Positions 2,733 to 59,355 of a stretch of 59,355 nt of DNA are shown piece after piece. The notes beneath the pieces are model-generated. The model saw only the letters and a list, made by a program, of their open reading frames with translations. It ran no database searches and was not told the DNA's origin. Source of the DNA: Segetibacter sp. GTDB lineage: Bacteria > Bacteroidota > Bacteroidia > Chitinophagales > Chitinophagaceae. The DNA lies in the NCBI GenBank assembly GCA_028288485.1, contig JAQBNO010000095.1:1-59355 (forward strand), written 5' to 3'. The translations under genes were made by a program, and so were the position numbers. Within the stretch, counting starts at the first letter, position 1, and each line of letters opens with the position of its first letter.

Positions 2733-2760
2733 ACATTGTTGTGTCACTCACTTCAGCTGC
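2733..2760 (+). repeat. Dispersed intergenic repeat, GTGTCAC form with diverged tail
   Basis: ACATTGTTGTGTCACTCACT is shared with the other GTGTCAC copies in the window. The tail continues CAGCTGC instead of TGTAC, the same tail seen in the copy at 16380. It lies in the 520-base gap between rlmN and the next gene. Confidence 0.75.
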
Positions 2761-2842
2761 AAAACTACAATAAACAAGTTGACAGTTGTTAGTTGAACGT
2801 TTACAGAGGCAGGTTTTACTGCCATCTGTCATCCCACAACCG

Positions 2843-2913
2843 TCATCCCAACTCCACGGGTTGGCTCAGTTAGCCAAAGCTTCTGCCTTACACCGAGAGG
2901 GTCTGGAGCGGTT
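2843..2913 (+). other. tRNA-Val-like remnant (doubtful)
   Basis: The stretch GGCTCAGTTAGCC (D-arm-like, forming a GGCT/AGCC hairpin) is followed by TTCTGCCTTACAC and GAGAGGGTC. This resembles the D arm, anticodon loop with TAC, and variable region of bacterial tRNA-Val. The inner two pairs of the anticodon stem do not form, there is no T-arm GGTTCGAATCC, and no acceptor stem closes. At best it is a broken tRNA fragment. The rest of the 2598-3117 gap shows only the dispersed repeat and an AT-rich promoter-like stretch before 3118. Confidence 0.25.
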
Positions 2914-3117
2914 TTGTTATATCAGGCCTGGGCATTCGGGTACTATTCAAATAAAAGTTTTCGTGATTCATCCACTAATCACTAATTGTACATAAACTTT
3001 TAAATCTGCTGCATTAACTCTAATTCAAAAAAATGATTTTGCTATAATAATTCTTTTGAATTAAGCAAGTGTTTTTTTTGTTAATAATGGTATATATTTA
3101 AGTTAAAACTATATATC

Positions 3118-4419
3118 ATGAAAGTAAAACTTTTACAACTTTTTGCTTACGCGTCCTGTTTATGTTTGTTAACCTGGTCTTGTAAGAAAGAAGCCTTGGA
3201 TAATGTAGGTCTTCCACCGAATAGTGCAAATTTGACGGCGCCACCGCCCACACAGAGCTCAGGTGCGCGATCATCAAGGCTTATTGCTAAAGCGGGATCT
3301 ATTCCCAAGGTGGATGAATTCTCAGATTATCTTTCTAAGAGGATTGCGCGTGCCAGGTTAAATAAAAATGTAGTGGTGCCCAGCCAGTGCGGTCCTACTG
3401 CATTGGATAAAGTAATCGATAAATATTTTTCAAAGTTTGGTCCTCTTGAATTTGACTGGTTCTTTGAATACATAGTCATTAACCAGTTTTCGACACTAAT
3501 TGACGTTTCGAAACAGTATTTTGGAGCAAACGGGCAATACACCCCCGTTGTTGTAAAACACCAAAAAACTTTAGAACCTTTTTGGAAAATGTTTAATGAA
3601 ATAAAGATAAATGGTCAACACAACAGTACACTTAATAGTAGGGACAAAATAGCTGAGGTACTTATATATTTTTTTGGATTCCCCACTGCAGATGCTTATG
3701 CTTTTGCAAATGAAATGATAGCTATCAACATAATAAGTCCTGTATTTATAGAAACGCCCTTACTTTCGTTTGACGCATTTGCTACTACGAACGAATTTAT
3801 TCCTCTTGATGCGGATCTTATAGTGTTGAGTGATGGAATAATAGAAGCGCTTTCCGAGACAGGTATTGGAAGTAACGTAGTTGTTGGAGGTGTTTTGTCG
3901 CACGAGTGGGGACACCAGGTCCAATTCAATTACTCTAAAAAATGGTATGGTGTTGAATTAGGTGCATGGCCCTCTACCCCTGATTTTACCCGGTTCACTG
4001 AAATGGAGGCGGACTGTTTTTCGGGTTATTATTTAACCCATAATAAAGGAGCCCAATATAACTGGAGACAAATTGCACAGTTTTTATATTTATTCTATAC
4101 CATCGGCGATTGCGCGTTTACTGATCCGGGTCATCATGGTACTCCTAATCAGAGATTTGCAGCCTCAAGATTGGGATTTTTAATTGCGGAACTGACATTT
4201 CCGAGATCTAAAGTACTTTCTGCAGACCAGGTTCACGAGCTTTATTCGGCTGGCTACGATCATATTATAAAGAATAGTATCAACTTGAAACAGGCATTGG
4301 CGCGTTTGAAAACAGAGGAACTAAAAGCAATATTTGCGAAGATCGTAATTCGTAAAACAGAATTACAATCTATTGCCAATGGCAGCATTGATAAAAACAC
4401 TATAGAGAACCTGAGGTAA
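3118..4419 (+). CDS. Lipoprotein zinc metallopeptidase (YpfJ-like)
   Basis: A 433-residue exported lipoprotein. The signal peptide ends at cysteine 22 (LTWSC), followed by a proline/serine-rich linker to about residue 60. The zinc site HEWGH (about 262-266) is preceded by GVLS. A downstream EMEADCFSGYY (about 295) supplies the likely third ligand, and HHGTPNQR (about 338-345) resembles the HGTS.QR motif of the YpfJ neutral zinc metallopeptidase family. It probably acts as a surface or periplasmic protease, but the substrate is unknown. A short AT-rich region precedes the start, and a bidirectional terminator follows. It has no operon partner. Confidence 0.75.
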   Translation: MKVKLLQLFAYASCLCLLTWSCKKEALDNVGLPPNSANLTAPPPTQSSGARSSRLIAKAGSIPKVDEFSDYLSKRIARARLNKNVVVPSQCGPTALDKVIDKYFSKFGPLEFDWFFEYIVINQFSTLIDVSKQYFGANGQYTPVVVKHQKTLEPFWKMFNEIKINGQHNSTLNSRDKIAEVLIYFFGFPTADAYAFANEMIAINIISPVFIETPLLSFDAFATTNEFIPLDADLIVLSDGIIEALSETGIGSNVVVGGVLSHEWGHQVQFNYSKKWYGVELGAWPSTPDFTRFTEMEADCFSGYYLTHNKGAQYNWRQIAQFLYLFYTIGDCAFTDPGHHGTPNQRFAASRLGFLIAELTFPRSKVLSADQVHELYSAGYDHIIKNSINLKQALARLKTEELKAIFAKIVIRKTELQSIANGSIDKNTIENLR

Positions 4420-4441
4420 TTGACCGGGTTTTAATATTTTG

Positions 4442-4477
4442 AAAAAGTTGTGCAGCACCAGCGGCACAACTTTTTTT
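4442..4477. terminator. Bidirectional terminator between convergent genes
   Basis: A 12-bp perfect stem, AAAAAGTTGTGC (4442-4453) against GCACAACTTTTT (4464-4475), has a 10-nt loop and a T run on each strand. It serves the plus-strand protease and the minus-strand small lipoprotein. Confidence 0.85.
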
Positions 4478-4505
4478 ATTGCTCTAACCGAATGTAATTA
4501 CGTAA

Positions 4506-4865
4506 TTAGTTTTTACCTCTCCCTTTGCTTTTATACTTTCCTCTTCCCCCCTTATCATAACCCCTACCAGATCTATATTCCCTGTTGTCATAAGAATCAT
4601 CCCTGTCGCGGTGGCCCCTGGAATATCTTTTTGCAGATTTGGAACCGTATATCTTTTTTGCCTGGCCCGGAGGCATGTTACGGGTATTTCCAATAACTCT
4701 TCCATTCCGGTCTATTACCGTTCCGTCCCTGGTTACTATAACGTCGTCATTCCTTCCGGTTGAGGGATAAGTTGGATATGGACTTGAACCGGGATAGGAT
4801 TGGTTGCTACAGCCCGTTAGGACAGCCAAAGCAGAGATGACGATGAGGCCGAGTAAGTTTTTCAT
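4506..4865 (-). CDS. Small basic lipoprotein with Gly/Arg/Lys-rich tail
   Basis: A 119-residue protein with a lipoprotein signal (lipobox LTGC, Cys 19) and a short linker rich in Pro, Ser and Tyr. A repeat-like middle segment reads VIVTRDGTVIDRNGRVIG. It ends in a strongly basic tail rich in Arg, Lys, Gly and Asp from about residue 75. Similar short lipoproteins occur in Chitinophagaceae and are sometimes labelled quinol oxidase subunit 4, a name with no functional support in this sequence. A role at the periplasmic face of the envelope is all that can be inferred. Confidence 0.7.
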   Translation of the reverse strand: MKNLLGLIVISALAVLTGCSNQSYPGSSPYPTYPSTGRNDDVIVTRDGTVIDRNGRVIGNTRNMPPGQAKKIYGSKSAKRYSRGHRDRDDSYDNREYRSGRGYDKGGRGKYKSKGRGKN

Positions 4866-5009
4866 GATAATTTTTAGCAGGGCAAAAACGAAAAGTGTGC
4901 CAGAAGGGAGCTTTTTAAAACTGCATATGTTAAATGAAAGGGATAATAAACCTCAAGTTACAGTTAGGTGAATGCTGGCAGATACCGAATTTTGCCTGTT
5001 GCTGAAAAC

Positions 5010-5037
5010 GTGATTCAGTACATATTACTGAAATCAC
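5010..5037. repeat. Inverted repeat in intergenic space
   Basis: GTGATTCAGTA (5010-5020) faces TACTGAAATCAC (5026-5037), complementary over 11 of 12 positions with one bulged base. No T run follows, so it is more likely an operator or a decayed repeat than a terminator. The rest of 4866-5147 holds nothing I recognise. Confidence 0.4.
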
Positions 5038-5147
5038 CTCCAAAGGAGTCTTTAGACAAAGGGATCCATTTCGGATAACGATGTTAAATAAACATCTCTA
5101 TTGATCACCAAAAAAACCGATTTAAGATTGTTTTCATCACGCATCTA

Positions 5148-6488
5148 TCACATTTTTGACACTTTTGGCAACCTGAAGCCGTTGTGGTACTCCTTCATAA
5201 GGTACTGCCTATTTATATCTTTATCGGTAAATGCATTTTTTGAATCATCCCATTGTAATTTTTGACCGCTTCTATAAGCGATATTTCCCATTTGTGCCAC
5301 CGTCGCTATATGAGCACCGGCCTGGATGGAACAATTCAGGTCTTCCATTTTGCGCGACTTAATTACGTTTACAAAGTTGACCATGTGCTTTTCGAGACCA
5401 TTGTCTGAAGATTTTACGAAGGGCTTACTTACTTTGTTTTTGCCCTGCCGCTCTTCTACCACTTCCCAGCCTTCACGGCTTAGGACCAGAGTTCCGTTAT
5501 TACCGATGTAAGCAATGCCATGTTCGCGATTATAAGGTCCGTTATTTATACCCATAGCCGAATCCCAGATCATATTAAAACCGTCGAATTCGTACATCGT
5601 GGTCAGCGTATCAGGCGTTTCCTGGAACAGCTCCGGATAAGCGTAACGGCCTCCTAAAGCAGAAACAGATGTTGGAATGGACGCTTTCATGCCAAGCAGG
5701 CCATAGTCTAATAGGTGCACACCCCAGTCGGTCATCAAGCCCCCGGCATAATCCCAGAACCATCGGAAATTAAAATGAAAGCGATTTGCATTAAATGCAC
5801 GGGTTGGGGCAGGGCCTAACCATGAAGCATAATCAACACCTGCCGGAGGCGCAGAGTCTGCAATTACAGATGCGGGTTTTGCCCAATCGAGGTAACACCA
5901 TACTTTAACCGTTCTGATATTTCCTAATTGCCCGCTATGCACAAAATCTACAGCATCTTTAAAATGCTGCTGGCTACGCTGCCATTGCCCCGCCTGAACA
6001 ACCTTATTGTATCGTTGTTGCGCCGTTACCATAGCCTGGCATTCTCCAATAGAATTCCCGACAGGCTTTTCTACATATACATCTTTTCCGGCTTCACACG
6101 CATGCGTCATCATTAATGCGTGCCAGTGATCTGGCGTACCAATGATCACCGCATCAATATCTTTTTGATCCAATAAACTCCGGTAATCGCTGTAAATCTT
6201 CACTTTTGAAGCGTCTACGTTCATTTTTCCCAGGTCAGCGATTCTTTTGCCGATAACGTTTTTGTCGACATCGCACACCGCTACCAGGTTAACTCCCGGC
6301 ACTTTCAATACTGCAGAAACGTCGGCCCAACCCATTCCGTTGATGCCTATAGCACCAACGTTAATTTGGTCCCCCGGCATTACGCGATTTTTGAAAATTG
6401 CAAATGCTTTGTTATTCGCAGCAGAAGCTAAAAATCCTCCACCCGTTAGCAAGGCAGCGTTTTGTAAAAATTTCCTACGGTTTGTCAT
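5148..6488 (-). CDS. Gfo/Idh/MocA family oxidoreductase with Tat signal
   Basis: A 446-residue NAD(P)-dependent oxidoreductase. A twin-arginine signal (RRKFLQ at residues 4-9, then a small-residue hydrophobic stretch ending near NNKAFA) indicates export in folded form. The Rossmann fold begins near residue 42 with INVGAIGINGMG, and the family motif EKPVGNS lies near residue 140. Secreted members in Bacteroidota usually act on sugars or sugar derivatives, some as glycosidases with a transient NAD cycle. No carbohydrate genes adjoin it, so the substrate is open. It reads as a single-gene unit. Confidence 0.88.
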   Translation of the reverse strand: MTNRRKFLQNAALLTGGGFLASAANNKAFAIFKNRVMPGDQINVGAIGINGMGWADVSAVLKVPGVNLVAVCDVDKNVIGKRIADLGKMNVDASKVKIYSDYRSLLDQKDIDAVIIGTPDHWHALMMTHACEAGKDVYVEKPVGNSIGECQAMVTAQQRYNKVVQAGQWQRSQQHFKDAVDFVHSGQLGNIRTVKVWCYLDWAKPASVIADSAPPAGVDYASWLGPAPTRAFNANRFHFNFRWFWDYAGGLMTDWGVHLLDYGLLGMKASIPTSVSALGGRYAYPELFQETPDTLTTMYEFDGFNMIWDSAMGINNGPYNREHGIAYIGNNGTLVLSREGWEVVEERQGKNKVSKPFVKSSDNGLEKHMVNFVNVIKSRKMEDLNCSIQAGAHIATVAQMGNIAYRSGQKLQWDDSKNAFTDKDINRQYLMKEYHNGFRLPKVSKM

Positions 6489-6646
6489 CGTTTCTGTTTT
6501 CAGTGCAGGCCAAAAAGGAAAGTACGGAGACCTGTGTAAATTCCTGCAAAAAAAAGATAGTCATGTAGATTAATTAAAAGCGCCTGATAATACAAGCGAC
6601 GGAGAAGCCATTTGAATTCGTTTTGTTCTTTGGGCAACAACATATT

Positions 6647-8011
6647 TTATTCAAATAACTCGTTAGGCAATTCCGTTTGTGCAATGATAGTTTGTTCTCC
6701 TGTGCTTAAGTTCTTAACTACACACTTTCCTTCCTGCAATTCTTTACTGCCAATAATAACAGCGTAAGAAATCCTTTTTTTATCAGCATATTTAAACTGC
6801 TTATCAAACTTTGCATTTTCATGATAGATCTCACATGCAATTCCCTTTTCTCTTAGCTGCTGCATTAGTAAGAAGGCAGCTTTGCTTTCCGCTTCTCCCA
6901 GGTTAAAGAAAAGGACTTTTGTACCTGTTTGCACTTCAGCAGGAAAAAGTTTCAGTTCTTCCATTACATCGTAAATTCTGTCGACCCCAAAACTTATTCC
7001 TACACCAGGAACATTTGGAACACCAAATAAGCCGGTTAAATCATCATATCTTCCACCACCGCCAATGCTACCAATTTGGACGGCTTTTGCTTTTATTTCG
7101 AAGATAATGCCCGTATAGTAGTTCAGTCCCCGGGCCAGGGTAAAGTCAGTTGACACTTGACTGGTTACAGATGAAGGAAGGAAGTTCAAGATGAATTCTA
7201 TCTCTTCAATTCCCTTTTTGCCTGTATCCAATTCGCCCATCATTATTTTTAAGGCTGCTATTTTTTCCTCCGTACTGCCACTGATTAAAAGATAATTTTC
7301 TATTGTTGTTACCTGGTTCGATGCTAAACCTCTTTGAGATAATTCTTCTTTTACTTTTTCCATCCCGATTTTATCCAGCTTGTCAATCGCGATAGTTATG
7401 TCTATCATTTTATCGGCACCACCACATAGTTCGGCTAAGGCCGCTAATATTTTCCGGCTGTTGATTCTTATTTCTACGTCTATTCCCAGCTTTTTAAACA
7501 CAGTGCTATATATACTTGTCAGTTCAACTTCATTTAACAAGCTGTTGCTGCCTACAACATCAGCATCGCATTGGTAAAACTCGCGGTATCTTCCTTTTTG
7601 GGGCCGGTCGGCCCGCCACACCGGTTGGACCTGGTATCTTTTGAAAGGTAATGTGAGTTGTCCAAAATTCATGGCTACATACCGGGCAAATGGAATGGTA
7701 AGATCATATCGCAATGCCCTTTCTGTAAGGCCCTTTATACTTTTTCCTTCAAGTATTTTGGCAAAATCTTCTTGAGCCTGTACATGTTTCGCGGGATTGT
7801 CTAAACCATTGTTAAGTATTTTGAAGATTAGTTTATCACCTTCCTCCCCATACTTTCCCATTAATGTGTCCAGGTTTTCCATTGCCGGAGTTTCCAACGG
7901 CTGAAAGCCATATAATTCAAACACAGAACGAATAGTGTTAAATATGTAATTGCGTTTTCCTACTACTTCTGCAGAGAAATCTCTTGTGCCTTGCGGTAAC
8001 GTCGGTTTCAT
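6647..8011 (-). CDS. hisS: Histidine--tRNA ligase
   Basis: A 454-residue class II aminoacyl-tRNA synthetase charging tRNA-His. Diagnostic elements are TLPQGTRDFSAE at the N-terminus, RYDLTIPFARYVAMN, the motif 2 region RPQKGRYREFYQCDAD, the histidine A motif ARGLNYYTG, GGGGRYDDL and motif 3 GISFGVDR. A C-terminal anticodon-binding domain follows (about 360-454). Length is normal for the family. A GTCCC-TAAA-GGGAC hairpin lies 11 bases upstream of the start, in the leader. Confidence 0.97.
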   Translation of the reverse strand: MKPTLPQGTRDFSAEVVGKRNYIFNTIRSVFELYGFQPLETPAMENLDTLMGKYGEEGDKLIFKILNNGLDNPAKHVQAQEDFAKILEGKSIKGLTERALRYDLTIPFARYVAMNFGQLTLPFKRYQVQPVWRADRPQKGRYREFYQCDADVVGSNSLLNEVELTSIYSTVFKKLGIDVEIRINSRKILAALAELCGGADKMIDITIAIDKLDKIGMEKVKEELSQRGLASNQVTTIENYLLISGSTEEKIAALKIMMGELDTGKKGIEEIEFILNFLPSSVTSQVSTDFTLARGLNYYTGIIFEIKAKAVQIGSIGGGGRYDDLTGLFGVPNVPGVGISFGVDRIYDVMEELKLFPAEVQTGTKVLFFNLGEAESKAAFLLMQQLREKGIACEIYHENAKFDKQFKYADKKRISYAVIIGSKELQEGKCVVKNLSTGEQTIIAQTELPNELFE

Positions 8012-8021
8012 GTTAAACCCA

Positions 8022-8035
8022 GTCCCTAAAGGGAC
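8022..8035. repeat. CCCTTTAGGG-type hairpin repeat in the hisS leader
   Basis: GTCCCTAAAGGGAC forms a 5-bp stem with a 4-nt loop. On the minus strand it reads GTCCCTTTAGGGAC, matching the hairpins at 24786-24797 and 26055-26066. It lies directly before the hisS start codon, so it is probably transcribed. Confidence 0.55.
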
Positions 8036-8071
8036 CTCTTGATTTTAAAATTTCGAAAAATTGTGTTTAGT

Positions 8072-8508
8072 TTAAACGCTTATAGAATCGTAACTTTTGA
8101 TAGTTGCCGCGTCTGCTTCGTCAATCATTTGGTATACCTTGTGAAATCTCTCTTCACCCGGTACCATGAGCCCTGAACTTCCTTGTTTACGGATATCATC
8201 GACTTTATCCTCCTCCATTATTTGCCTGCTATTTTTTATCAGGTCATGATAATTCTCTCGATCCGCAACATAGATCTTATCCAATTTTTACAGGTCATCC
8301 TGGTCAAAATGCCGCAATTGTTGTTGCAAATCTCTATTCCATAGCGCCTGGCCACTTTTAAGCGAATAATAATGAGGCACAGACCCAAGGTTATGGCCGA
8401 GAGTTCCTGCACTGTTTATTTCCTGATCCAGGGCCTGCTTTTTCTACCTTATCTCTTAACATACCTTCAGCTAAACGGCTTTCTGCATAAATTTCGGAGG
8501 TAAACCAT
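8072..8508 (-). pseudogene. Broken gene of unknown family
   Basis: Conceptual joining of frames gives a charged protein of about 143 residues. It begins at the ATG at 8508, shifts frame into a piece containing EIYAESRLAEGMLRDKVEK, shifts again near 8440 into QALDQEINSAGTLGHNLG, meets an in-frame TAA at about 8289, then continues in the same frame to SYDSISV. At least two frameshifts and one stop separate pieces that look coding. A good promoter box (TATCTTTG) remains upstream. I do not recognise the family. Confidence 0.5.
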
Positions 8509-8521
8509 TAAAATTCAGGCG

Positions 8522-8529: not shown

Positions 8530-9290
8530 AAGGAAGAAAGAATGGCGCAGAATGATGAATAGTGAACACTGGAAAGTGCTGTTTATTAAATCTAAAAAGG
8601 CGAAGTTGATTAAAAATCAATGGAGACTCATATCTCATTTTGAGAGGAGGAAGTGATTTACTTTCAGTTACATAACCTACTGGTACCATTTTTTTTCCTT
8701 TTTTAATGCTGACTGTAGTAGCTGCCGATGAACGAAATGCGACGCAACTATGTTTAATATTGTTAAAATGCCTGTCTCAAAAACATCTGTCTTAAATTGC
8801 GAAAGATTTTCCAGTTTCAAGACGCTTCGATAGTTGTCGCGGTCAATTAACTTTCTCTTATTTAAAAACTTTATGGATTTGGTTTCTCTTTGCATCTAAA
8901 GTAGAATCACCTGAATTTTTACCGGTGGTGAAAGAATTATTGTACAGGGAACAACTCGATAATATGGTGTGAATGTTGACCGAAAGTGGCGCGGTAATTG
9001 CCTCTGAAATAATAGAAATGGAAGAATTCGACACCTGCAATTATTGAAATTCTCAACTCAATTGAAACTGCAGAAAAAAAAAGATGAGTAAGGAATCTTT
9101 AGAAGCGTACCACAAGGAGTTTTAAAAAGATCGAATAATTATAAAAGGTCACAGAGAATTTTCAGCTTCAAATTGAAAAATAAAAACAGTATTATTGCCG
9201 GATTTTAACCCAATCCATTGATCTGGTATGAGTTAATAAGGCAATTTTCATTCGAAAAGTATTTATATTGCCAACGTTTAAACGGATATA
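8530..9290. other. Decayed coding region without an intact gene
   Basis: About 760 bases carry only short open stretches on both strands. Plus-strand pieces such as SPEFLPVVKELLYREQLDNMV and MSKESLEAYHKEF are each ended by stops within 10-25 codons. A minus-strand 72-codon frame at 8677-8895 runs through a dispersed repeat. This looks like relic coding DNA rather than designed regulatory sequence. No RNA gene is visible. Confidence 0.4.
8721..8754 (-). repeat. Dispersed intergenic repeat, GCGTCGC form with TTCGTTCATCG tail
   Basis: On the minus strand AACATAGTTGCGTCGCATTT is followed by CGTTCATCGGCAGC. It has the same core and tail as the copies at 16380, 24513 and 59020. It lies inside the decayed region. 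Confidence 0.8.
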
Positions 9291-9524: not shown

Positions 9525-9526
9525 AC

Positions 9527-10447: not shown

Positions 10448-10472
10448 AAAACAACATCAAAAACTAAGACAC

Positions 10473-12647: not shown

Positions 12648-12990
12648 TTTTTTACTAGTATTTTTTGACCATCCTTAGATTAAATATTATACATCGTTAT
12701 CCGAATTGATTCCTTTGGTGATCTCACTTCCTTCTGTACTACCAACCATTGTTCATCTTCCAAATACGCCAAACATTATTGTTTACACGCCTGCTTGTTA
12801 ATTAGGAACTGCGAAAACGATAGGAGCGGTCTGGGGGCAATATGGGCGTGATATATTCTCCTTGCATACAAAAGAGTAATCTGGAACTTTTTTTGCATAA
12901 CATAATTCATTATTCAGTTCTTTTCAATTTTAGCAAAAACAAGCAGCTGGAAATTATTATAATGGAAGGTGAATGTGTTGAATGATTTAT

Positions 12991-16379: not shown

Positions 16380-16413
16380 CATCGTTGCGTCGCATTTCGT
16401 TCATCAGCTGCAA
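16380..16413 (+). repeat. Dispersed intergenic repeat, GCGTCGC form with TTCGTTCATC tail
   Basis: CATCGTTGCGTCGCATTTCG is followed by TTCATCAGCTGCAA, in the nuoD-nuoE gap. The CAGCTGC end is shared with the copy at 2733. Confidence 0.85.
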
Positions 16414-17898: not shown

Positions 17899-17923
17899 GT
17901 ACAAGTGTGCGACGCAACGATGT
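17899..17923 (-). repeat. Dispersed intergenic repeat, GCGTCGC form
   Basis: On the minus strand ACATCGTTGCGTCGCACACT is followed by TGTAC. Full-length copy between the VOC pseudogene and nuoF. Confidence 0.9.
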
Positions 17924-20499: not shown

Positions 20500-20519
20500 C
20501 TTGCGTCGCACTCTTGTAC
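20500..20519 (+). repeat. Dispersed intergenic repeat, GCGTCGC form, 5' end trimmed
   Basis: CTTGCGTCGCACTCTTGTAC keeps the core and tail but has lost the ACATCG start. It lies between the two glycosyltransferases. Confidence 0.8.
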
Positions 20520-24512: not shown

Positions 24513-24544
24513 ACATCGTTGCGTCGCATTTCGTTCATCGGTAG
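24513..24544 (+). repeat. Dispersed intergenic repeat, GCGTCGC form with TTCGTTCATCG tail
   Basis: ACATCGTTGCGTCGCATTTC is followed by GTTCATCGGTAG. Nearly identical over the first 28 bases to the copies at 16380 and 59020. Confidence 0.88.
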
Positions 24545-24709: not shown

Positions 24710-24743
24710 GTACAAGTCACCCCCGCCGTGGCGGGAACAATGT
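24710..24743 (-). repeat. Dispersed repeat with core replaced by a GC hairpin
   Basis: Read on the plus strand, GTACAAGT at one end and AACAATGT at the other are the exact outer parts of the minus-oriented repeat. The usual core between them is replaced by CACCCCCGCCGTGGCGGG, which forms a CCCGC-CGTG-GCGGG hairpin. Confidence 0.65.
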
Positions 24744-31342: not shown

Positions 31343-31368
31343 AACATCGTTGTGTCACTCACTTGTAC
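31343..31368 (+). repeat. Dispersed intergenic repeat, GTGTCAC form
   Basis: AACATCGTTGTGTCACTCAC is followed by TTGTAC; a full-length copy. The rest of the 31287-31712 gap shows no gene. A TATCTTTA box near 31686 may be the promoter of the next gene. Confidence 0.9.
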
Positions 31369-33100: not shown

Positions 33101-33126
33101 GTACAAGGGAGTGACACAACGATGTT
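33101..33126 (-). repeat. Dispersed intergenic repeat, GTGTCAC form
   Basis: On the minus strand AACATCGTTGTGTCACTCCC is followed by TTGTAC. It lies just before the convergent terminator. Confidence 0.9.
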
Positions 33127-39304: not shown

Positions 39305-39330
39305 AACATCGTTGTGTCACTCCCTTGTAC
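39305..39330 (+). repeat. Dispersed intergenic repeat, GTGTCAC form
   Basis: AACATCGTTGTGTCACTCCC is followed by TTGTAC. Full-length copy, same TCCC variant as at 33101. Confidence 0.9.
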
Positions 39331-41020: not shown

Positions 41021-41040
41021 GTACAAGTGTGCGACGCAAC
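41021..41040 (-). repeat. Dispersed intergenic repeat, GCGTCGC form, 5' end trimmed
   Basis: On the minus strand GTTGCGTCGCACACTTGTAC, lacking the ACATC start. In the mnmE downstream gap. Confidence 0.85.
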
Positions 41041-41095: not shown

Positions 41096-41941
41096 TCATT
41101 TAAGCTTCTTAAGAAATTCCAGGCTTAGGGGTATCTGTTCAACTGCCTTTGGTGATTCGTCTTCTATGAAGTAGTGTTTGATGCCGATTTTTTTAGCCTC
41201 TTTCATGATTTCGGCTATACCAACATCACCTTGCCCGAGAACTACGTTTGTTTCATCCGGTGCACGGCCTTCCTGGTTGCCCGGAGTACCTGGCTGGCGG
41301 TCTTTTAAATGTAACATAAGAAAACGATCGGGATATTTTTTGAGTAACGAAACAGGATCCTGGCCGGGGTGCTTCACCCAAAAAACATCCATCTCAAAAT
41401 TCACATATCGGGGGTCGGTGTTCTTTACCATATAGTCGAATTGCGTTCCATCTTCGTGTGGTCTGAATTCGTACCCATGGGGATGGTAACAAAACTTCAA
41501 ACCGTTTTCACTAAGCACTTTGCCTGCTGCATTAAAAACATCTATCGCCTTATTTAACTCAGCCTGGGTGAAGTCGCCTTCTTTGTGCGGCACCCAGGCG
41601 CACATGATATACTTCGCTCCAAATACTTTGGCCTTGTCAGCCACCGCTTGCGGGTCCTTTTCTAATTCGTCAAATCCCGCTCCATGACTTACCATCTCCA
41701 GGTTGTTTTGCTTCAACAGCTTCTTATACTCTTCTACCGGCAAACCATAAGTACCGCCACCTTCTATTTGCTTTATCTTCCACCCTTTTATTTTAGCAAG
41801 GGTTCCCGGAACATCAGTTTTAAACTCGTTTCGTAAACTATACAATTGCAACCCGATCTCCTGGGCAAACACGGAAGCACCCGAAATAAATAGTGTTATG
41901 CTTAAAACAAAAAGCCGGTTAAAAGTTGGTTTAATTTTCAT
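41096..41941 (-). CDS. Exported sugar phosphate isomerase/epimerase-like TIM-barrel protein
   Basis: A 281-residue protein with a Sec signal (about 1-24, ending VFAQ), then a xylose-isomerase-like AP2-type TIM barrel. It begins GLQLYSLRNEF, with ICAWVPH-type metal-site strands, CYHPHGYEFRP, FEMDVFWVKHPGQDP, MLHLKDRQPG and FIEDESP. His, Glu and Asp residues on the successive strands fit a divalent-metal isomerase. Such exported forms are frequent in Bacteroidota, but substrates are rarely known. The start at 41941 is taken because it opens the signal peptide; the open frame extends 105 bases further upstream. Confidence 0.85.
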   Translation of the reverse strand: MKIKPTFNRLFVLSITLFISGASVFAQEIGLQLYSLRNEFKTDVPGTLAKIKGWKIKQIEGGGTYGLPVEEYKKLLKQNNLEMVSHGAGFDELEKDPQAVADKAKVFGAKYIMCAWVPHKEGDFTQAELNKAIDVFNAAGKVLSENGLKFCYHPHGYEFRPHEDGTQFDYMVKNTDPRYVNFEMDVFWVKHPGQDPVSLLKKYPDRFLMLHLKDRQPGTPGNQEGRAPDETNVVLGQGDVGIAEIMKEAKKIGIKHYFIEDESPKAVEQIPLSLEFLKKLK

Positions 41942-45080: not shown

Positions 45081-45104
45081 CATTGTTGCGTCGCACATTT
45101 GTAC
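45081..45104 (+). repeat. Dispersed intergenic repeat, GCGTCGC form
   Basis: CATTGTTGCGTCGCACATTT is followed by GTAC, in the 388-base gap between the M16 peptidase and the acyltransferase, which holds no gene. Confidence 0.88.
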
Positions 45105-45261: not shown

Positions 45262-45286
45262 TACAAGTTGCAGTGAGTGACACAAC
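45262..45286 (-). repeat. Dispersed intergenic repeat, GTGTCAC form with short insert
   Basis: On the minus strand GTTGTGTCACTCACTGCAAC is followed by TTGTA. A GCAAC insertion separates core and tail. It faces the copy at 45081 in opposite orientation, 158 bases apart. Confidence 0.75.
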
Positions 45287-52317: not shown

Positions 52318-52342
52318 ACATCGTTGTGTCACTCACTTGTAC
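52318..52342 (+). repeat. Dispersed intergenic repeat, GTGTCAC form
   Basis: ACATCGTTGTGTCACTCACT is followed by TGTAC. Full-length copy. Confidence 0.92.
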
Positions 52343-53696: not shown

Positions 53697-53789
53697 TTGA
53701 TTGTAAAAGCATACAGGTGAGAAGCAAATATTAAACTTATAGCACCTGGGTTTTTACAAGTACTAAGTGAAGAGAAAACATATTCTTCA

Positions 53790-53841
53790 GTACAAGTGCC
53801 CACCCGCTGAAGCCGTTCCGACGGGAGTGACACAACAATGC
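53790..53841 (-). repeat. Dispersed repeat, GTGTCAC form with 26-base insert
   Basis: Plus strand: GTACAAGT, then a GC-rich insert with CCCGC and CGACGGG, then GAGTGACACAACAATG. The two halves of a normal copy are kept, split by the insert. It lies between the DUF6786-like gene and hemW. Confidence 0.75.
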
Positions 53842-53873
53842 TCATTTAATATTCTCGGTCGGTCCCCAAATTT

Positions 53874-54998
53874 TTACATTATAAACAGGTCTGCTGCGAT
53901 TCCGTCGGCAAGTAATTTCCCTTGCATGGTGGTTTTCAGATAGTGGTTTTCAATGGTCAGATGCGCATTTGTAACATGAGGTCGTGCAGTTTTTATTAAA
54001 TAGTCATAAATGTCTTTTCCAAACTCTTGTTGTACCTTTTGTAATGACAGGCCTTCCATTGTTCGCAGGCTTGTCATTATATACTCGTTCAGTTGTTGCT
54101 CAGGCGTTAATAGTTCTACTTCAAAGGGTACAATTCCTTTTGCCAGGCTTTGTATATATAAAGCATTATTAGCAATGTTCCATTGGCGGCTAAAACCGTT
54201 AAAAGAGTGTGCGGAAGGACCTAAGCCTATATAGCGTTTCCCCTGCCAGTAACTGCTGTTGTGTTTGCTTCTAAAGCCGGGTTTGGCAAAATTTGAAATT
54301 TCGTAATGGTCGTATCCCGCTTTATTCATCCATAACATTAAGAGCTCAAAATGCCGCGCTTGTTTTTCAGGATCAACATCAGCCAGCGATTTTTGCTTTA
54401 TTAACGTGTCCAGCGCAGTTTTAGGTTCAACAGTTAGCGCATAGCACGAAAGGTGAGGGATTTGTAAAGCGAAGGCAGTATCCACATTTTTCTTCCAGTT
54501 GTCGTCGGTCAGGCCGGGCGTACCATAAATTAAGTCGATAGTAAGGTTATTGAAACCGGCTTCTTTTGCCAGCCCGATACAATCAATCGACTGGCTAGCA
54601 TTATGAGCACGGTTCATCCATTGAAGATCTTCCTGGAAAAATGACTGAATCCCGATGCTTAAACGGTTAACACCCGTATTTTTCCATTCCGCCAGTTTCT
54701 CCAGATTTATATCATCGGGATTCGCTTCCACAGTAATTTCAGCGTCATTCTCAACTATAAAGTGCTTCTGCAATTGAGTAAGAATGCGATTTATATCTGC
54801 AGAAGGAAGAATAGATGGCGTGCCGCCGCCAAAATAAATGGTTGAAACAGGCTCAGAAAGATAATTTTTCTGAAGCTCGATTTCCTGCAACAGGCTTATT
54901 ACAAAACTTTCCTGAAGCCTTGTCGAGGTAGAAAAATGGAAGTTGCAATAGTGGCAGGCTTTCCTGCAAAAAGGGATATGAATATAAACACCTGCCAT
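53874..54998 (-). CDS. hemW: Radical SAM family heme chaperone HemW
   Basis: A 374-residue cytosolic protein. MAGVYIHIPFCRKACHYCNF gives the radical SAM cysteines C11, C15 and C18, with the HemW-specific extra Cys-type context (CNF following). GGGTPS, GVNRLSIGIQSF and DLIYGTPGL follow at typical places. HemW-type proteins carry heme rather than making coproporphyrin oxidations; older annotations as HemN are wrong for this motif. It diverges from the Omp85 gene with only 33 bases between start codons. Confidence 0.93.
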   Translation of the reverse strand: MAGVYIHIPFCRKACHYCNFHFSTSTRLQESFVISLLQEIELQKNYLSEPVSTIYFGGGTPSILPSADINRILTQLQKHFIVENDAEITVEANPDDINLEKLAEWKNTGVNRLSIGIQSFFQEDLQWMNRAHNASQSIDCIGLAKEAGFNNLTIDLIYGTPGLTDDNWKKNVDTAFALQIPHLSCYALTVEPKTALDTLIKQKSLADVDPEKQARHFELLMLWMNKAGYDHYEISNFAKPGFRSKHNSSYWQGKRYIGLGPSAHSFNGFSRQWNIANNALYIQSLAKGIVPFEVELLTPEQQLNEYIMTSLRTMEGLSLQKVQQEFGKDIYDYLIKTARPHVTNAHLTIENHYLKTTMQGKLLADGIAADLFIM

Positions 54999-55031
54999 GT
55001 AAGCCGGAACTTTTGTAAACTTGTTGAAATA

Positions 55032-56828
55032 ATGACGGCAAAGTTAACCAGATATAAGTTTAAAGAAGTGTTGGCGGTGTTAATGTACATCGGCTCTTTC
55101 GCCACAGGGTCTGCTCAAAATAGCCACCGCCTTATTATTCGCCCCGTAGATAAAGACAGCATTTTTATTGCACGTAATCTAGGGCTGGTTACTTCATTCC
55201 GTACCCCAGTAGAATGTAATAATTATATAAACCAATTGCCGTTTTTATTACAGGCGAAGGGCTTTATTTCGGCGTCTGTTGATAGTATTATTCCCAATGA
55301 CGATCAAACGATTATATATCTTTTTACCGGGGAGAAATTCCAATTGCTGAACCTGGAAATCCGAAGCCGGGATAAACCATACTTGCAGCACATAAGCTGG
55401 CAGAACAAGGCTTCCAAGGGAAAGCAGTTGCAATTTTCAGATTACCAGGTCGTATCCGAAAAATTACTGGACTACTTTGAAAATAACGGGTATCCTTTTG
55501 CACGGGTAAACCTTGATAGCATTTCGCTGTCAAACGGGCAGATAGGAGCAGTGCTGAATATAGAAAAGGGCTATCCATACCGCCTTGATAGTGTTAGAAC
55601 GTACGGTCCGGCAAAAATTTCACGAAACTTTATTCACCATTACCTGAACATCGAAAGGGGCTCTTTGTACAATAAGTCTAAACTCGAAAAAATCGACCAG
55701 CGATTGCTCGAACTCCCCTACCTGGCGCAAACACAACCGTGGGACTTAACCATGCTAAATACAGGAAGCCATGTAAACCTGTACCTGCAATCGAAGAAAA
55801 GCAACCAGGTAAATGTACTGGCAGGTTTCCTGCCTTCAAATCAACAGTTGGGAGGTAAGTTGCTACTCACGGTAGACGCAAACCTGCAATTACAAAACGC
55901 TTTCGGGGGTGGCGAAACTTTTGGGATGGTATGGCAGCAAATACAACCTAAATCGCCTAGGTTACACTTGCAATACACCCAACCCTACATGTTCAATTCT
56001 TCCTTCGGTGTCGATTTTCTCTTTGACTTGTTTAAAAGAGATTCATCGTTTCTGAACATCAACGGGCAGTTGGGCTTGTTGTACATGGTCTCGCCTAATA
56101 AAACCGGGAAAGTTAGTTTGCAGTCTCAACGAACAAATGTGTTGGAAATAGACACTTTTAGAATCAAGGCATCTAAGCGATTACCAGACCTCGCAGATGT
56201 AAGTTCGCTAAATCTGGGAGTCGATTATGATGTAACAAATACCAACTACAAGTTCAATCCACAACGCGGAAGTGAACTAACGATGTCGATAGCTGCGGGT
56301 AATAAAACCATCAGGAAGAATACAACCATAACCCAGATCAAGGACGCTTCGTTTGATTATAACCGTTTGTACGACTCTGTTAAATTAAAAACTTACCAAT
56401 TGAGATTTAAGGCTAAAGCTGCTCATTATTTCAAGGTAGGAAAGCAAACAGTATTAAAAACAGCCGTAAATGGCGGTTGGTACGAAAGCCCAAGTTATTT
56501 CAGGAACGAATTATTCCAGGTCGGAGGTTACCGGTTACTCCGGGGATTTGACGAAGAAAGCATTTATGCAAACCGGTATATTGTTGGTACAGTAGAGTAC
56601 CGGTACCTGGTTGGCATTAATTCTAACTTTTTTGTTTTTTCAGATTTTGGTGTTAGTAATAACCGCATTATTAAGCAATCAAATAGTTATCTGGGAGCCG
56701 GTGTGGGTCTTTCTTTGGAAACCAAAGGAGGTATTTTTAATGTAAGTTTTGCTGCAGGCAAACGTAACGACCTTAATTTCGACATAAAGCAATCAAAGAT
56801 ACACTTCGGGTACGTTAGTATATTCTAA
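55032..56828 (+). CDS. Omp85/BamA-TamA family outer-membrane protein
   Basis: A 598-residue exported protein with a signal-like start (hydrophobic stretch to about residue 28). POTRA-like repeats occupy about 35-230 (for example NGYPFARVNLDSISLS). A C-terminal 16-strand surface-antigen barrel contains the lock motif VGGYRLLRGFDEES (about 525-538) and ends with aromatic residues (FGYVSIF). It is an outer-membrane assembly or secretion barrel; too short and single-copy in context to be BamA itself. ATG 55032 is preferred over an upstream ATG that would overlap hemW. Confidence 0.85.
   Translation: MTAKLTRYKFKEVLAVLMYIGSFATGSAQNSHRLIIRPVDKDSIFIARNLGLVTSFRTPVECNNYINQLPFLLQAKGFISASVDSIIPNDDQTIIYLFTGEKFQLLNLEIRSRDKPYLQHISWQNKASKGKQLQFSDYQVVSEKLLDYFENNGYPFARVNLDSISLSNGQIGAVLNIEKGYPYRLDSVRTYGPAKISRNFIHHYLNIERGSLYNKSKLEKIDQRLLELPYLAQTQPWDLTMLNTGSHVNLYLQSKKSNQVNVLAGFLPSNQQLGGKLLLTVDANLQLQNAFGGGETFGMVWQQIQPKSPRLHLQYTQPYMFNSSFGVDFLFDLFKRDSSFLNINGQLGLLYMVSPNKTGKVSLQSQRTNVLEIDTFRIKASKRLPDLADVSSLNLGVDYDVTNTNYKFNPQRGSELTMSIAAGNKTIRKNTTITQIKDASFDYNRLYDSVKLKTYQLRFKAKAAHYFKVGKQTVLKTAVNGGWYESPSYFRNELFQVGGYRLLRGFDEESIYANRYIVGTVEYRYLVGINSNFFVFSDFGVSNNRIIKQSNSYLGAGVGLSLETKGGIFNVSFAAGKRNDLNFDIKQSKIHFGYVSIF
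55039..55046 (-). promoter_or_regulatory. -7 promoter box of hemW inside the divergent gene
   Basis: TAACTTTG on the minus strand is a full -7 match. It lies within the third to fifth codons of the plus-strand Omp85 gene, so hemW's promoter overlaps its neighbour's coding start. The predicted hemW leader is about 35 bases. Confidence 0.6.
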
Positions 56829-56886
56829 ATGGGGCCGTACCCCTGGTTGTTTAAGTAATATTTTTTTCGCTGTCAGTTCACTGAGA

Positions 56887-56894
56887 TATTTTTG
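56887..56894 (+). promoter_or_regulatory. -7 promoter box before the DUF4271 gene
   Basis: TATTTTTG matches TAnnTTTG and lies 18 bases before the TTG start codon. Confidence 0.55.
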
Positions 56895-56912
56895 CCGCAA
56901 TAATCCGCCTCA

Positions 56913-57977
56913 TTGAAAAAACTGTTTTTAATATTATTGTTATGTTTTACCGGTTACAGTGCTCTTGCTCAAAGAGATACTGTTATACAGCCACCACCAA
57001 CAGATACCGGTAAACCAACCCTGCGGCCGGCAGTTAAAAGGACAGTAAGAAGAATCGCCGTTATTGATACTTTGAAACGAAGACTCGCCGATGATTCTAC
57101 CCGTGTAGCCGATAGTCTTGCAAGAGCAGATTCTGTAAATCCTGCCATTTTAGATTCCGCAGTCGCTTTACCTTCTCCTGTAAAAAAGACTGCTCAACCG
57201 GTAACTGCTCAACCGGTAATTGTAAAGAAACCCTTTGACTCTTTTTATAAAAAGTTGTTAGACAATCCCTTTCTTCGAACAACAGCAAAACCTATTTATT
57301 TGATCATTAATGAACGGGAAAGACAATCGAAAGATGAAATGTTTTACCTGCTGTTAGGCTTATTGGCTTTTCTGGGTTTTGTAAAGCTTATTTTCAGCCG
57401 CTATTTTACCAATGTGTTCCGGTTATTCTTCCAGCCTTCGTTTCGTCAAAAGCAAACCCGCGAGCAATTGTTGCAAAGCCGGCTTCCATCTTTATTGCTC
57501 AATTTATTTTTCATATTTTCAGGCGGTGCTTATGTTTCTTTTTTGATTGCCTATTACAACCTTACTCATCTCGATTTCTGGTTGATCTTGTTATACAGTT
57601 CATCGGCTCTAATGCTGTTGTATGCTGGTAAGTTCATTATTTTATCTTTTGCCGGTTGGGTATTTAATGTTAAAGAAGCTACTAATACCTATATTTTTTC
57701 AGTGTATCACATCAATAAAATCATCGGGGTTATTCTTATTCCGTTTACCCTCATTATCGCGTTTTCTCAGCCACTTATTATTAACATTTCTATTACTATA
57801 TCGCTTTTACTCATATTACTGCTGTTTATCTACCGGTACCTCGTGTCTTACAGTTCTGTTCGCAGAGACTTAAAAGTCAGCGGATTACATTTTTTCTTTT
57901 ACATTTGTGCCTTCGAAATAATCCCCCTTTTACTGATTTACAAGACCTTAATTAATTATTTGGACAATAGTCTTTAA
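56913..57977 (+). CDS. DUF4271 membrane protein
   Basis: A 354-residue protein with a signal peptide (about 1-18, ALAQ). A Thr/Pro/Ala linker with repeated ADS and TAQPV units reaches about residue 105, followed by about seven transmembrane helices (from about 142 to the end). DUF4271 members are typical of Bacteroidota and often stand before hemD, as here, but their function is unknown. The start must be TTG at 56913, since no in-frame ATG precedes the signal peptide. Its TAA stop is part of the hemD -7 box. Confidence 0.85.
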   Translation: MKKLFLILLLCFTGYSALAQRDTVIQPPPTDTGKPTLRPAVKRTVRRIAVIDTLKRRLADDSTRVADSLARADSVNPAILDSAVALPSPVKKTAQPVTAQPVIVKKPFDSFYKKLLDNPFLRTTAKPIYLIINERERQSKDEMFYLLLGLLAFLGFVKLIFSRYFTNVFRLFFQPSFRQKQTREQLLQSRLPSLLLNLFFIFSGGAYVSFLIAYYNLTHLDFWLILLYSSSALMLLYAGKFIILSFAGWVFNVKEATNTYIFSVYHINKIIGVILIPFTLIIAFSQPLIINISITISLLLILLLFIYRYLVSYSSVRRDLKVSGLHFFFYICAFEIIPLLLIYKTLINYLDNSL

Positions 57978-57982
57978 TTTTG
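57975..57982 (+). promoter_or_regulatory. -7 promoter box of hemD overlapping the upstream stop codon
   Basis: TAATTTTG is a full TAnnTTTG match whose first three bases are the stop codon of the DUF4271 gene; 21 bases separate it from the hemD ATG. Confidence 0.55.
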
Positions 57983-58003
57983 CATTAAATACAGAATATC
58001 AGC

Positions 58004-58801
58004 ATGGTTAAAAACGGGGCAATTTCCGGTACTGCCGGAAAGAATGTGAAAAAAATTCTAATAACGCAACCTAAACCTGAAAATGACAGGTCACCGTATT
58101 TTGAGCTTGCAAAGAAATATAATATAGACCTGGTTTTTCACCCATTCATACGACTTGAAGGTATACCTGCAAAAGAATTTAGAAAACAAAAAATTGATAT
58201 TTCCTACTATTCCGCGGTAGTGTTTACCAGCCGTAATGCGATAGATCACTTTTTTAGGATTTGCGAAGAAATGAAGGTTACGATCAGCCAGGATACAAAA
58301 TATTTTTGTATAACAGAGGCCGTTGCTTTGTACCTGCAAAAATTTATCCTGTACCGCAAACGAAAAGTTTTTTATGGTGCCGATGGTACTAACAAAAGCA
58401 TGTTTGATGTAATTAACAAACATAAGGAGAACGAAAAGTTCTTATACGTTTGCAGCGAAAACCAGCAGGATAACGAAATTGTAAACTGGCTAAAAAACAA
58501 TAAATGTGAATTTGCCCTGGCATTTATGTACCGCACCGTCAGCAACGATATTGGTTCTGTGATGGAATCTCGGTTTGATGTTATTTGTTTTTTTACTCCG
58601 TCAGGCGTGAAAAGCCTCTTTGATAATATTCCAACTTTTGCCCAGGAAGAGACCCTCATTGGTGCTTTCGGAAATAATACTTCTAAGGCAGTGGAAGAGT
58701 CGGGTTTAAACCTGGAAATCAAGGCTCCTTTACCCGAGGCGCCAAGTATGGTCGCGGCCCTTGAACAATTTTTGTCTGCGGCGGCAAAGAATAGGCAATA
58801 A
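58004..58801 (+). CDS. hemD: Uroporphyrinogen-III synthase
   Basis: A 265-residue cytosolic enzyme that cyclises hydroxymethylbilane in heme biosynthesis. ILITQPKPENDRSPYFELA opens the two-domain fold. YSAVVFTSRNAIDHFF (about 67-82), then FFTPSGVKSLFDN (about 197-209) and FGNNTSKAVEESG (about 223-235), are the conserved substrate-cleft segments. Low sequence conservation is normal in this family. Confidence 0.88.
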   Translation: MVKNGAISGTAGKNVKKILITQPKPENDRSPYFELAKKYNIDLVFHPFIRLEGIPAKEFRKQKIDISYYSAVVFTSRNAIDHFFRICEEMKVTISQDTKYFCITEAVALYLQKFILYRKRKVFYGADGTNKSMFDVINKHKENEKFLYVCSENQQDNEIVNWLKNNKCEFALAFMYRTVSNDIGSVMESRFDVICFFTPSGVKSLFDNIPTFAQEETLIGAFGNNTSKAVEESGLNLEIKAPLPEAPSMVAALEQFLSAAAKNRQ

Positions 58802-59355
58802 TCCGGAAAATTTTAATAAAGTAGCTTATAAATAGTTGTACAACTATAAACTGAATTAGTTGAAATCGGCGCTTGTGCCTCAACCTATAGAAGCATTATC
58901 TTTTCTTCTATTGATAGCTAACCTCTCACCATCCAGGTGATTTTATAAATAAATCACTCGTTCTTGCTGCTAATAATGTTTAGTGTTTTTTTGATCCTGG
59001 CTCTATCGCCCCGATGGAGCATTGTTGCGTCGCATTTCGTTCATCGTTAGTTACTTCCCGCAGCATTTATATTTTCAAATAATTTTATTGTTCCCCGGCT
59101 CCGAGACTCGAAGTGGGACGCAAGAGACCTTAGGGGGCGGCGCACAAACCATGCAATATGAGCTTTTAGTGCCATCATTTATAGCTCAAGCCGCGGCTTC
59201 GTTGTTGCAACGGGCTCTCCCGCTTGCCATCGGCACTTTGTTTCTGAAGCCGCTTCGCTGGTTTCAGTCCAGAACCTCGCTACGCCTTCGCTTGCCACCA
59301 ATCCGGCTGATGTCCGTTATGCAATACCTGTTGTAAGAAGCGAATATTATAACAC
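58802..59355. other. Intergenic end of window with repeat and GC-rich scrap
   Basis: No intact gene is seen in these 554 bases. The AT-rich half holds one dispersed repeat. From about 59090 to 59310 the composition becomes clearly GC-richer, with broken frames on both strands. This may be a relic of foreign DNA or of a longer repeat cut by the window edge. Confidence 0.4.
59020..59050 (+). repeat. Dispersed intergenic repeat, GCGTCGC form with TTCGTTCATCG tail
   Basis: CATTGTTGCGTCGCATTTCG is followed by TTCATCGTTAG; matches the copies at 8721, 16380 and 24513. Confidence 0.88.

Follow-up and report, generated by a model that had tools for sequence, protein, structure and literature searches.

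Why do short repeats with similar ends lie on both strands in the gaps between the genes of a Segetibacter-like genome, what moves them, and do they act on the chromosome that carries them? The question arises from a single stretch of 59,355 nt, hereafter the window, in which the initial annotation listed 15 copies and compared their layout to REP elements moved by a RAYT-type Y1 transposase.

Structure of the repeat and its copies in the window

The repeat, or an evident relative of it, is present at all 15 listed sites. With a cut-off of 11 bits and matrices trained partly on the window itself, a PWM scan of the window returns 15 matches and none in a reversed control; the matches are 14 of the 15 listed sites plus a weaker degenerate copy at 121-140, and the copy at 53790 is missed because a hairpin interrupts its core. 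The ten-base cores GTTGTGTCAC and GTTGCGTCGC occur 14 times, whereas 60 dinucleotide shuffles average 0.12 occurrences and never exceed 1. Moreover, all 15 PWM matches lie in gaps, as had been proposed, according to a rough ORF call made with our own codon-score caller rather than an annotation.

The unit is longer than the roughly 25 bp originally described. It spans about 85 bp and consists of a T-tract with an ACC-R-GC block, a spacer of about 17 bp, a 20 bp core and a loose 3′ block, where the T-tract and ACC-R-GC block sit 23-38 bp upstream of the core at a near-fixed distance. The core has two coupled subfamilies (GTG and GCG), and its invariant part is the middle, GTTG followed by TGTCACTC or CGTCGCAC. 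The two sequences first taken as shared ends, ACATCGTT and CTTGTAC, are indeed present as the usual shoulders of this middle, but four copies end in ATTTCGTTCATC instead; these form the GCGb variant of the GCG subfamily. Hairpins of differing sequence can interrupt the core with both arms retained, and there is a long-hairpin subfamily (ACATCGTTATCC...CCTTTGGTGATCTCACTTCC). Folding of the consensus alignment yields 0 to -1.1 kcal/mol, with at most a 3 bp mini-hairpin and no conserved stable fold, so that single-strand recognition of the core is something we infer only. Rfam models have no match in the window at the gathering threshold. The tetranucleotides CGTC/TGTC happen to lie inside both cores.

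The GCGb copies are at 8729-8748 (minus strand, 46.6 bits, ATTTCGTTCATC end), 16384-16403 (plus, 43.9 bits), 24518-24537 (plus, 49.7 bits), which has the identical site and orientation in Segetibacter aerophilus (L081), and 59024-59043 (plus, 47.2 bits); the degenerate copy at 121-140 (minus, 18.0 bits) is GCGb-like. GCG cores are found at 17899-17918 (minus, 40.2 bits), missing from the syntenic L081 gap (182 versus 61 bp), at 20500-20519 (plus, CTTGCGTCGCAC, 33.1 bits), at 41021-41040 downstream of mnmE (minus, 38.2 bits) and at 45085-45104 (plus, 32.1 bits), the left arm of a close inverted pair whose right arm is a GTG core at 45267-45286 (minus, 36.7 bits). The other GTG cores are at 2738-2757 (plus, 34.2 bits), with a T-tract upstream and CTTCAGC as its right end; at 31349-31368 downstream of nuoN (plus, 37.0 bits), common to L081 and missing from L083 (gaps of 426 versus 60 bp); at 33101-33120 (minus, 31.5 bits), also common to L081; at 39311-39330 upstream of mnmE (plus, 34.5 bits); and at 52323-52342 (plus, 37.4 bits). 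The hairpin-interrupted copy at 53790-53840 (minus) reads GTTGTGTCACT, hairpin, ACTTGTAC. Three further interrupted or partial copies were recognised by sequence beyond the original list: a partial long-hairpin copy at 5056-5084 (minus), a long-hairpin copy at 12691-12739 (plus) and a hairpin-interrupted copy at 24710-24742 (minus, CATTGTT-CCCGCCACGGCGGG-GGTGACTTGTAC). In L081, the gap matching this last copy contains a minus-strand GTG copy without interruption, which follows the corresponding plus-strand copy.

Abundance across the Chitinophagaceae

The repeat is far from chance level: GTTGYGTYRCNNNNTTGTAC has 582 exact occurrences in the 6.375 Mb Segetibacter-like genome of the window (G000) and none when read backwards, so the density of the window is that of the genome and not a local feature. 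With two mismatches allowed, the same genome has 1,075 copies, compared with 26 in the control. Across the family, 63 of 147 genomes contain the exact core and 84 contain no exact copy, with a maximum of 1,330 (G141); the two-mismatch maximum is 2,400 copies in a 5.5 Mb genome (control 30). With up to 2,400 copies in 5.5 Mb, the repeat would rank among the more densely spread short-repeat systems of bacteria. Occurrence is patchy, with congeners having 0 and 117 copies, which is awkward for an important host function.

The mismatch histogram of G058 peaks at zero (199, 68, 23, 17 and 24 sites with 0-4 mismatches; control 0, 0, 0, 1 and 2), and G000 keeps some tail at 3 and 4 mismatches (21 and 29 sites), partly from the ATTTCGTTCATC subfamily. 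A plasmid search with one copy as query gave no match, and two exact scans of 2.9 million viral contigs gave 16 and 12 stretches. In the papers searched, no report of this repeat appeared for Chitinophagaceae or Segetibacter, and the core strings were unmatched there.

Position relative to genes

Between 93 and 98% of the PWM-found copies lie in intergenic gaps, most commonly at gene 3′ ends. In particular, a copy is present in 40 of 78 (G000), 57 of 65 (G141) and 60 of 72 (G058) convergent gaps that measure at least 100 bp, compared with 23 of 88, 44 of 89 and 57 of 117 divergent gaps, respectively. In tandem gaps, copy orientation is weakly linked to gene direction (60:24, 66:52 and 82:59), and co-directional genes do not bring co-directional copies at short range. 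Individual copies follow ordinary terminators.

Strand-specific spacing

In three genomes (G000 and, from a single genus, G141 and G058), copies in the same orientation keep clear of one another within about 1.5-3 kb; opposite-orientation copies show no mutual avoidance in any of the three. Among pairs closer than 2 kb in different gaps, same- versus opposite-orientation counts are 3 to 69 in G058, 40 to 100 in G141 and 5 to 18 in G000, and of 2,000 context-preserving orientation shuffles, 0 (G058), 0 (G141) and 7 (G000) reach the value seen at 1-2 kb. Per-strand spacing is also regular, with a coefficient of variation of 0.46-0.60 compared with 0.86-0.91 for random gaps (0 of 500 in each case), lower than that of all 436, 142 and 72 control 6-mers. 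Homologous deletion between neighbouring copies was considered as the cause and rejected: mixed-subfamily pairs are excluded too (among same-orientation pairs, 0 of 3 in G058 and 17 of 40 in G141 are mixed), a result that speaks against simple homologous deletion. The distance of about 2 kb kept between same-direction copies in these three genomes hints at an action of each copy on a single strand.

Close pairs (<500 bp) are predominantly convergent, at 88 versus 9 in G141, 37 versus 6 in G058 and 19 versus 4 in G000. In G141, inverted pairs favour spacings of 63 and 70 bp (11 and 9 of 73 pairs below 150 bp, tandem array excluded); these spacings are not preferred in G058 or G000. G070 was sampled as a fourth genome: among the first 100 of its 329 places, neighbours at 0.5-2 kb share an orientation in 3 cases and differ in 5, and no exclusion is visible, although the sample is thin and the repeat there is a dialect. 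In G141, a 2.58 kb periodicity that resembled a chromosome-wide lattice was traced to one tandem array of paralogous genes (249,630-304,303), and, unless stated otherwise, later G141 statistics omit 245-306 kb, which removes 41 of 418 copies. A separate rule of preferred plus/minus spacing at 1.5-2.0 and 2.5-3.0 kb did not survive; the same-orientation exclusion remains.

Gain, loss and conservation between relatives

Comparison of G141 with G058 reveals the empty sites that were looked for. Four gaps are 58-119 bp shorter in the relative (G141/G058 lengths of 125/6, 125/42, 79/21 and 152/47 bp), and units of about 85-120 bp were gained or lost between genes as blocks. Further, of 17 copy-bearing G141 gaps with a syntenic counterpart in G058, 13 have a copy in that counterpart as well, 10 with an identical orientation string. 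Across 20 orthologous pairs, the core is identical at 358 of 400 positions, while the flanks share 67% and 63% identity; random element pairs share 63% and 60%, and the flanks of these shared copies are therefore near saturation. Outside the 20 bp core, which is conserved, the unit drifts. Shared sites with equal divergence in relatives had been named as an argument against mobility: most of the sites compared are indeed shared, but the core there has been kept instead of diverging to the same degree, so mere ancient debris does not describe the family.

Three of 17 orthologous G141/G058 copies switched subfamily while retaining the copy and its orientation. Single copies are as conserved as paired ones, with mean mismatches of 0.89 and 0.90 in G141, 0.73 and 0.65 in G058, and 0.85 and 0.60 in G000, where only 5 are paired. 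G058 also contains three direct copies at 112 bp spacing, a local tandem expansion, which implies that close same-strand copies are not always removed.

Search for a mobilising enzyme

Searches with Pfam Y1_Tnp and NCBIfam NF047646 did not find a mover. RAYT-type proteins (NF047646) are present in the family, G141 included, but they are equally frequent with or without the repeat: of the 33 genomes having 10 or more exact copies, 26 encode them, as do 88 of the 114 others, with all RAYT subtypes pooled. The NF047646 search found none in G024 (146 exact copies) or G072 (62). Pfam Y1_Tnp has no match in G141 at E<=1e-3 (best 0.00116), and an early conclusion from this model alone that G141 lacks any Y1 protein was overturned by NF047646 and a looser threshold. 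In G000, there are seven weak NF047646 matches, the best with an E of 2.0e-9 and far from the curated cut-off.

The fetched loci do not show the repeat closely framing a Y1 gene, an arrangement that the initial annotation had suggested looking for. Among 32 loci from the Y1/RAYT searches (L009, L010 and L289-L318, some without a real Y1 gene and leaving out the weak G000 NF047646 matches), none has copies within 250 bp on both sides. Three (L010, L297 and L298) are flanked by copies left and right, at distances of roughly 290 to 1,080 bp; at L010, one of two Y1 loci of the window's own genome, one copy lies about 1 kb away on each side.

Explanations for the repeat

The account we favour, at somewhat less than an even chance, is a REP-like dispersed element derived by insertion, whose core is now under selection as a putative strand-specific site. 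A putative enzyme acting in trans would have mobilised a short unit, whose insertion multiplied the copies, and the core would now be kept by selection because a putative protein recognises it, probably on one strand, given the varied hairpins inside cores with retained arms and the strand-specific exclusion. The exclusion itself could arise if a close same-strand pair were cut out with the intervening DNA by a single-strand-acting (HUH-like) enzyme, or if close same-strand copies were redundant, each covering a couple of kb in a single direction. More tentatively, the copies may form a chromosome-wide, orientation-coded site system, in which each works on one strand and in one direction, reaching about 2 kb, the two strands are independently spaced, a dedicated putative protein keeps two site dialects, and the whole system is gained or lost across the family. 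If the exclusion holds in further genera, it would provide a quantitative signature, applicable to any genome, that separates one-strand-acting repeats from inert debris.

A somewhat unlikely alternative takes the repeat for a directional site on the chromosome that a conserved putative protein binds and that serves recombination, replication restart, nucleoid organisation or transcript insulation; selection would set spacing and core, and insertion would be no more than the way in which sites are gained. The conserved core between saturated flanks, the equal conservation of single and paired copies (with the few pairs of G000), the subfamily switches at constant orientation, the regular per-strand spacing and the multi-block consensus without a fold all fit such a site; the 84 genomes without an exact copy, sometimes in a copy-rich genus, do not, and no candidate protein emerged. 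The original proposal, a canonical REP/REPIN family with a RAYT as its mover, is improbable. Its layout is supported, as the repeat is short, dispersed, confined to gaps and present in hundreds of copies, with inverted pairs, subfamilies, a 3′-end preference, local tandem expansion and presence/absence between relatives, and the family has RAYT-type genes. RAYT-associated REPs, however, carry GT[AG]G at the base of a stable palindromic hairpin. REPINs are inverted doublets at fixed spacing whose singlets are less conserved, for which the repeat gives a mixed picture: spacings are favoured in G141 but not in G058 or G000, and singlets are equally conserved. The present repeat is an 85 bp composite consensus without GT[AG]G or a stable hairpin in the single unit, its single copies are not decayed, and it lacks RAYT association, as seen in copy number, in G024 and G072, in the distant copies at fetched loci and in the weak best match of its own genome. 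In the portion of PMC3116915 drawn on here, REPIN arms are 71 bp apart, compared with the 63 and 70 bp favoured in G141.

Very improbable is a motif like the DNA uptake sequences (USS/DUS), accumulated through biased natural transformation. Its hundreds to thousands of copies, family-wide patchiness, inverted pairs at gene ends and even spacing recall general traits of uptake sequences, which are abundant, paired at gene ends and evenly spaced in the parts of PMC1939737 and PMC7811141 consulted. In that part of PMC1939737, however, Haemophilus uptake is reported to be independent of motif orientation, so orientation-specific exclusion is not predicted, and uptake sequences are often within genes; the repeat lies almost entirely in gaps, and its longer unit arrives as a block of about 100 bp. 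Least probable of all are transcription terminators or 3′ mRNA stabilisers: the fuller convergent gaps favour them, but the intrinsic layout of a hairpin followed by a U-run is absent, since the T-tract precedes the core with no conserved hairpin before it, and copies follow gene direction only weakly in tandem gaps and not at all between co-directional genes at short range.

Other classes of element

Integron attC boxes read RYYYAAC/GTTRRRY, which the core does not fit, and the boxes of Bacteroidetes promoters do not fit either; both candidates were rejected. CGTC-tagged REPs (Di Nocera et al. 2013) are palindromic, have no known transposase and are reported from Bacteroidetes; in the portion of PMC3733652 used, their stems measure 8-9 bp and their loops 4-5 nt, and they carry a CCA tail. 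The consensus and fold of the repeat have no such stem, loop or tail. MITEs are defined by terminal inverted repeats, a target-site duplication and an autonomous partner. The repeat resembles bacterial MITEs in being non-coding and mobile-looking, with gap differences of 58-119 bp and, where two arms are opposed, a length of about 150 bp. The Y1 and RAYT searches yielded no autonomous partner; most copies are single arms, and the core is conserved long after the flanks are lost.

Abundance and genomic position of the element

The initial annotation described a dispersed repeat family with many copies, and the genome-wide count places it well above chance. In particular, the window's genome (G000; 6.375 Mb in 220 contigs) contains the exact core pattern GTTGYGTYRCNNNNTTGTAC 280 times in forward and 302 times in reverse orientation (582 copies), against 0 for the backwards control pattern. 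At least one exact core occurs in 63 of 147 Chitinophagaceae genomes, with zero backwards matches in all of them; counts are highest in G141 (1,330) and G058 (1,056), two genomes of one genus, followed by G000 (582), G063 (567) and G098 (363), a congener of the window's genome. The window's nuoN is most similar to that of Segetibacter aerophilus (82%), followed by that of Segetibacter sp. 3557_3 (76%), and the host is accordingly treated as Segetibacter-like. Exact counts within one genus may be all-or-none (0 versus 117 in genus g4; 62 versus 0 in g5). With two mismatches allowed, counts are 2,400 in G141 (control 30), 1,674 in G070 (21), 1,549 in G058 (24), 1,470 in G063 (19) and 1,075 in G000 (26). 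The rise in G070 from 227 exact cores to 1,674 points to a dialect, a motif variant dominant in this genus. Exact cores also appear in 28 stretches of IMG/VR viral contigs (L320-L347).

A scan with a position weight matrix at a cut-off of 11 bits located 195 elements in G000 (852 kb sampled), 418 in G141 (800 kb) and 338 in G058 (945 kb); the reversed control gave 0-1 hits in each sample. The proposed confinement to gaps between genes was borne out for most of them: 182/195 in G000, 369/377 in G141 once a tandem gene array was omitted, and 328/338 in G058. Among gaps of at least 100 bp, a copy was present in 40/78, 57/65 and 60/72 convergent gaps (G000, G141 and G058, respectively), in 92/248, 163/243 and 161/267 tandem gaps, and in 23/88, 44/89 and 57/117 divergent gaps.

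Anatomy of the element

Two core types prevail and mixed forms are almost absent. The 852 kb G000 sample holds GTTGCGTCGC 83 times, GTTGTGTCAC 73 times and GTTGTGTCGC once; in 400 kb of G141, the two main cores number 110 and 61, with GTTGCGTCAC and GTTGTGTTGC found 2 and 5 times. An ACC-R-GC block (about -28 to -23) and, further upstream, T-rich positions (-38 to -32) precede the core at near-fixed distances; on its 3′ side are GTTC and a TTATTCAGCA-like block, both weaker. A GCG variant ending in ATTTCGTTCATC occurs in 13-39 copies per sample. In alignment folding, a 3 bp mini-hairpin was the only conserved structure. In some G000 copies, a hairpin interrupts the core but leaves both arms in place, as at 8 of the 9 places in one G000 set and in about 6/7 of the G000 matches to a long-hairpin pattern, which has no match in the samples from G141 and G058. 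In the window, the copies at 24710 and 53790 are interrupted in this way; at the syntenic S. aerophilus locus (L081), the gap of the 24710 copy is occupied, in the same orientation, by an uninterrupted copy.

Gain, loss and core conservation

The element is gained or lost block-wise, and its core is retained. G141 and G058 have a median identity of 77% (reciprocal best hits) and share 40 syntenic gaps across the samples, where a copy is present in both genomes at 13, in G141 only at 4, in G058 only at 0 and in neither at 23. The four gaps with a copy in G141 only measure 125, 125, 79 and 152 bp when filled and 6, 42, 21 and 47 bp when empty, and the elements may have arisen by insertion. Orientation strings are equal in 10 of the 13 doubly filled gaps, and subfamilies are equal too in 8. 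In the window's region, L081 shares three of the four gaps in which a copy was scored; L083 shares 0/2 in matching orientation, and L084 shares 0/3.

Across 20 orthologous copies (17 from G141/G058 and 3 from the window and L081), identity is 358/400 in the core, 757/1126 in the left flank and 541/863 in the right flank, compared with 77%, 63% and 60% for random element pairs. Elements with 0 to 4 core mismatches number 199, 68, 23, 17 and 24 in G058, 170, 116, 31, 26 and 18 in G141, and 81, 43, 15, 21 and 29 in G000 (controls at most 3). The core is therefore retained while its flanks drift; subfamily switched in 3 of the 17 G141/G058 orthologues.

Spacing and orientation

Copies exclude one another in a strand-specific manner in G000, G141 and G058. 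Neighbours closer than 500 bp are convergent rather than divergent (88 versus 9 in G141, 37 versus 6 in G058, 19 versus 4 in G000), and pairs in separate gaps within 2 kb have the same versus opposite orientation in 3 versus 69 (G058), 40 versus 100 (G141) and 5 versus 18 (G000) cases. When orientations were permuted among single-copy gaps of equal gene context (2,000 trials), 0, 0 and 7 shuffles (G058, G141, G000) gave as few same-orientation pairs at 1-2 kb as were observed; at 0-1 kb, the G000 count was matched in 491 and is uninformative. The deficit extends to 2-3 kb in G058 (2/2,000) and G000 (15/2,000), but not in G141 (341/2,000).

Same-strand spacing has coefficients of variation of 0.60 (G000), 0.46 (G058) and 0.58 (G141), compared with 0.91, 0.90 and 0.86 for random gaps, which reached the element's value in 0/500 draws each; the 5% quantiles of the spacings are 2.8 kb (G000), 2.6 kb (G058) and 1.5 kb (G141). 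No intergenic 6-mer of similar number was equally regular (0/436, 0/142 and 0/72 in G000, G058 and G141), their lowest coefficients being 0.77, 0.81 and 0.84. Most of this regularity is accounted for by an exclusion zone, beyond which placement is near-random. Such spacing would be consistent with recognition of one strand of the element, which may now be used as a site. In G070, the rule is not visible among the first 100 of 329 places (about one fifth of its two-mismatch count), where neighbours 0.5-2 kb apart are 3 same and 5 opposite.

Candidate transposases

A Y1 or RAYT transposase as the mover, suggested by the initial annotation, finds no support here. The RAYT model NF047646 matches 114/147 genomes and is not enriched with element abundance (26/33 genomes with at least 10 exact copies versus 88/114 others); Y1_Tnp is present in 107/147, with two matches in G000. 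Among the loci fetched, no Y1 or RAYT gene is closely framed by element copies. The element's consensus matches neither the atypical structures of Bacteroidetes TnpA subclass 2.6 nor the CGTC REPs, described without a transposase, as given in excerpts of PMC6006769 and PMC3733652, respectively.

A short contig carries an intact IS200-like Y1 gene (L009:1489-1953; NF033573 match), followed at about 1955-2035 by two GTTGGGCTCTGCCCAAC-like palindromes; element copies are absent throughout this 2,040 bp locus. In the window's genome, a further Y1 gene is broken (L010:1490-1936) and has one element about 1 kb away on each side, in opposite orientations. RAYT-like proteins of about 170-215 aa and three sequence types occur in Chitinophagaceae (L305, L306, L307, L311-L315, L317 and L318); they are weak or missed with Pfam Y1_Tnp, and NF047646 matches 5 of the 5 scanned.

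Tandem arrays

The tandem array at G141:C1:249630-304303 (L203-L206) was interpreted as a series of paralogous genes. Every unit has element copies, and distances of about 2.5-2.6 kb from one convergent element pair to the next recur. On G058:C2 (L225, L220 and L226 joined), three direct GTG copies at 41126, 41238 and 41350 form a 112 bp tandem repeat immediately after a terminator-like hairpin; the counterpart gap in G141 holds one inverted pair.
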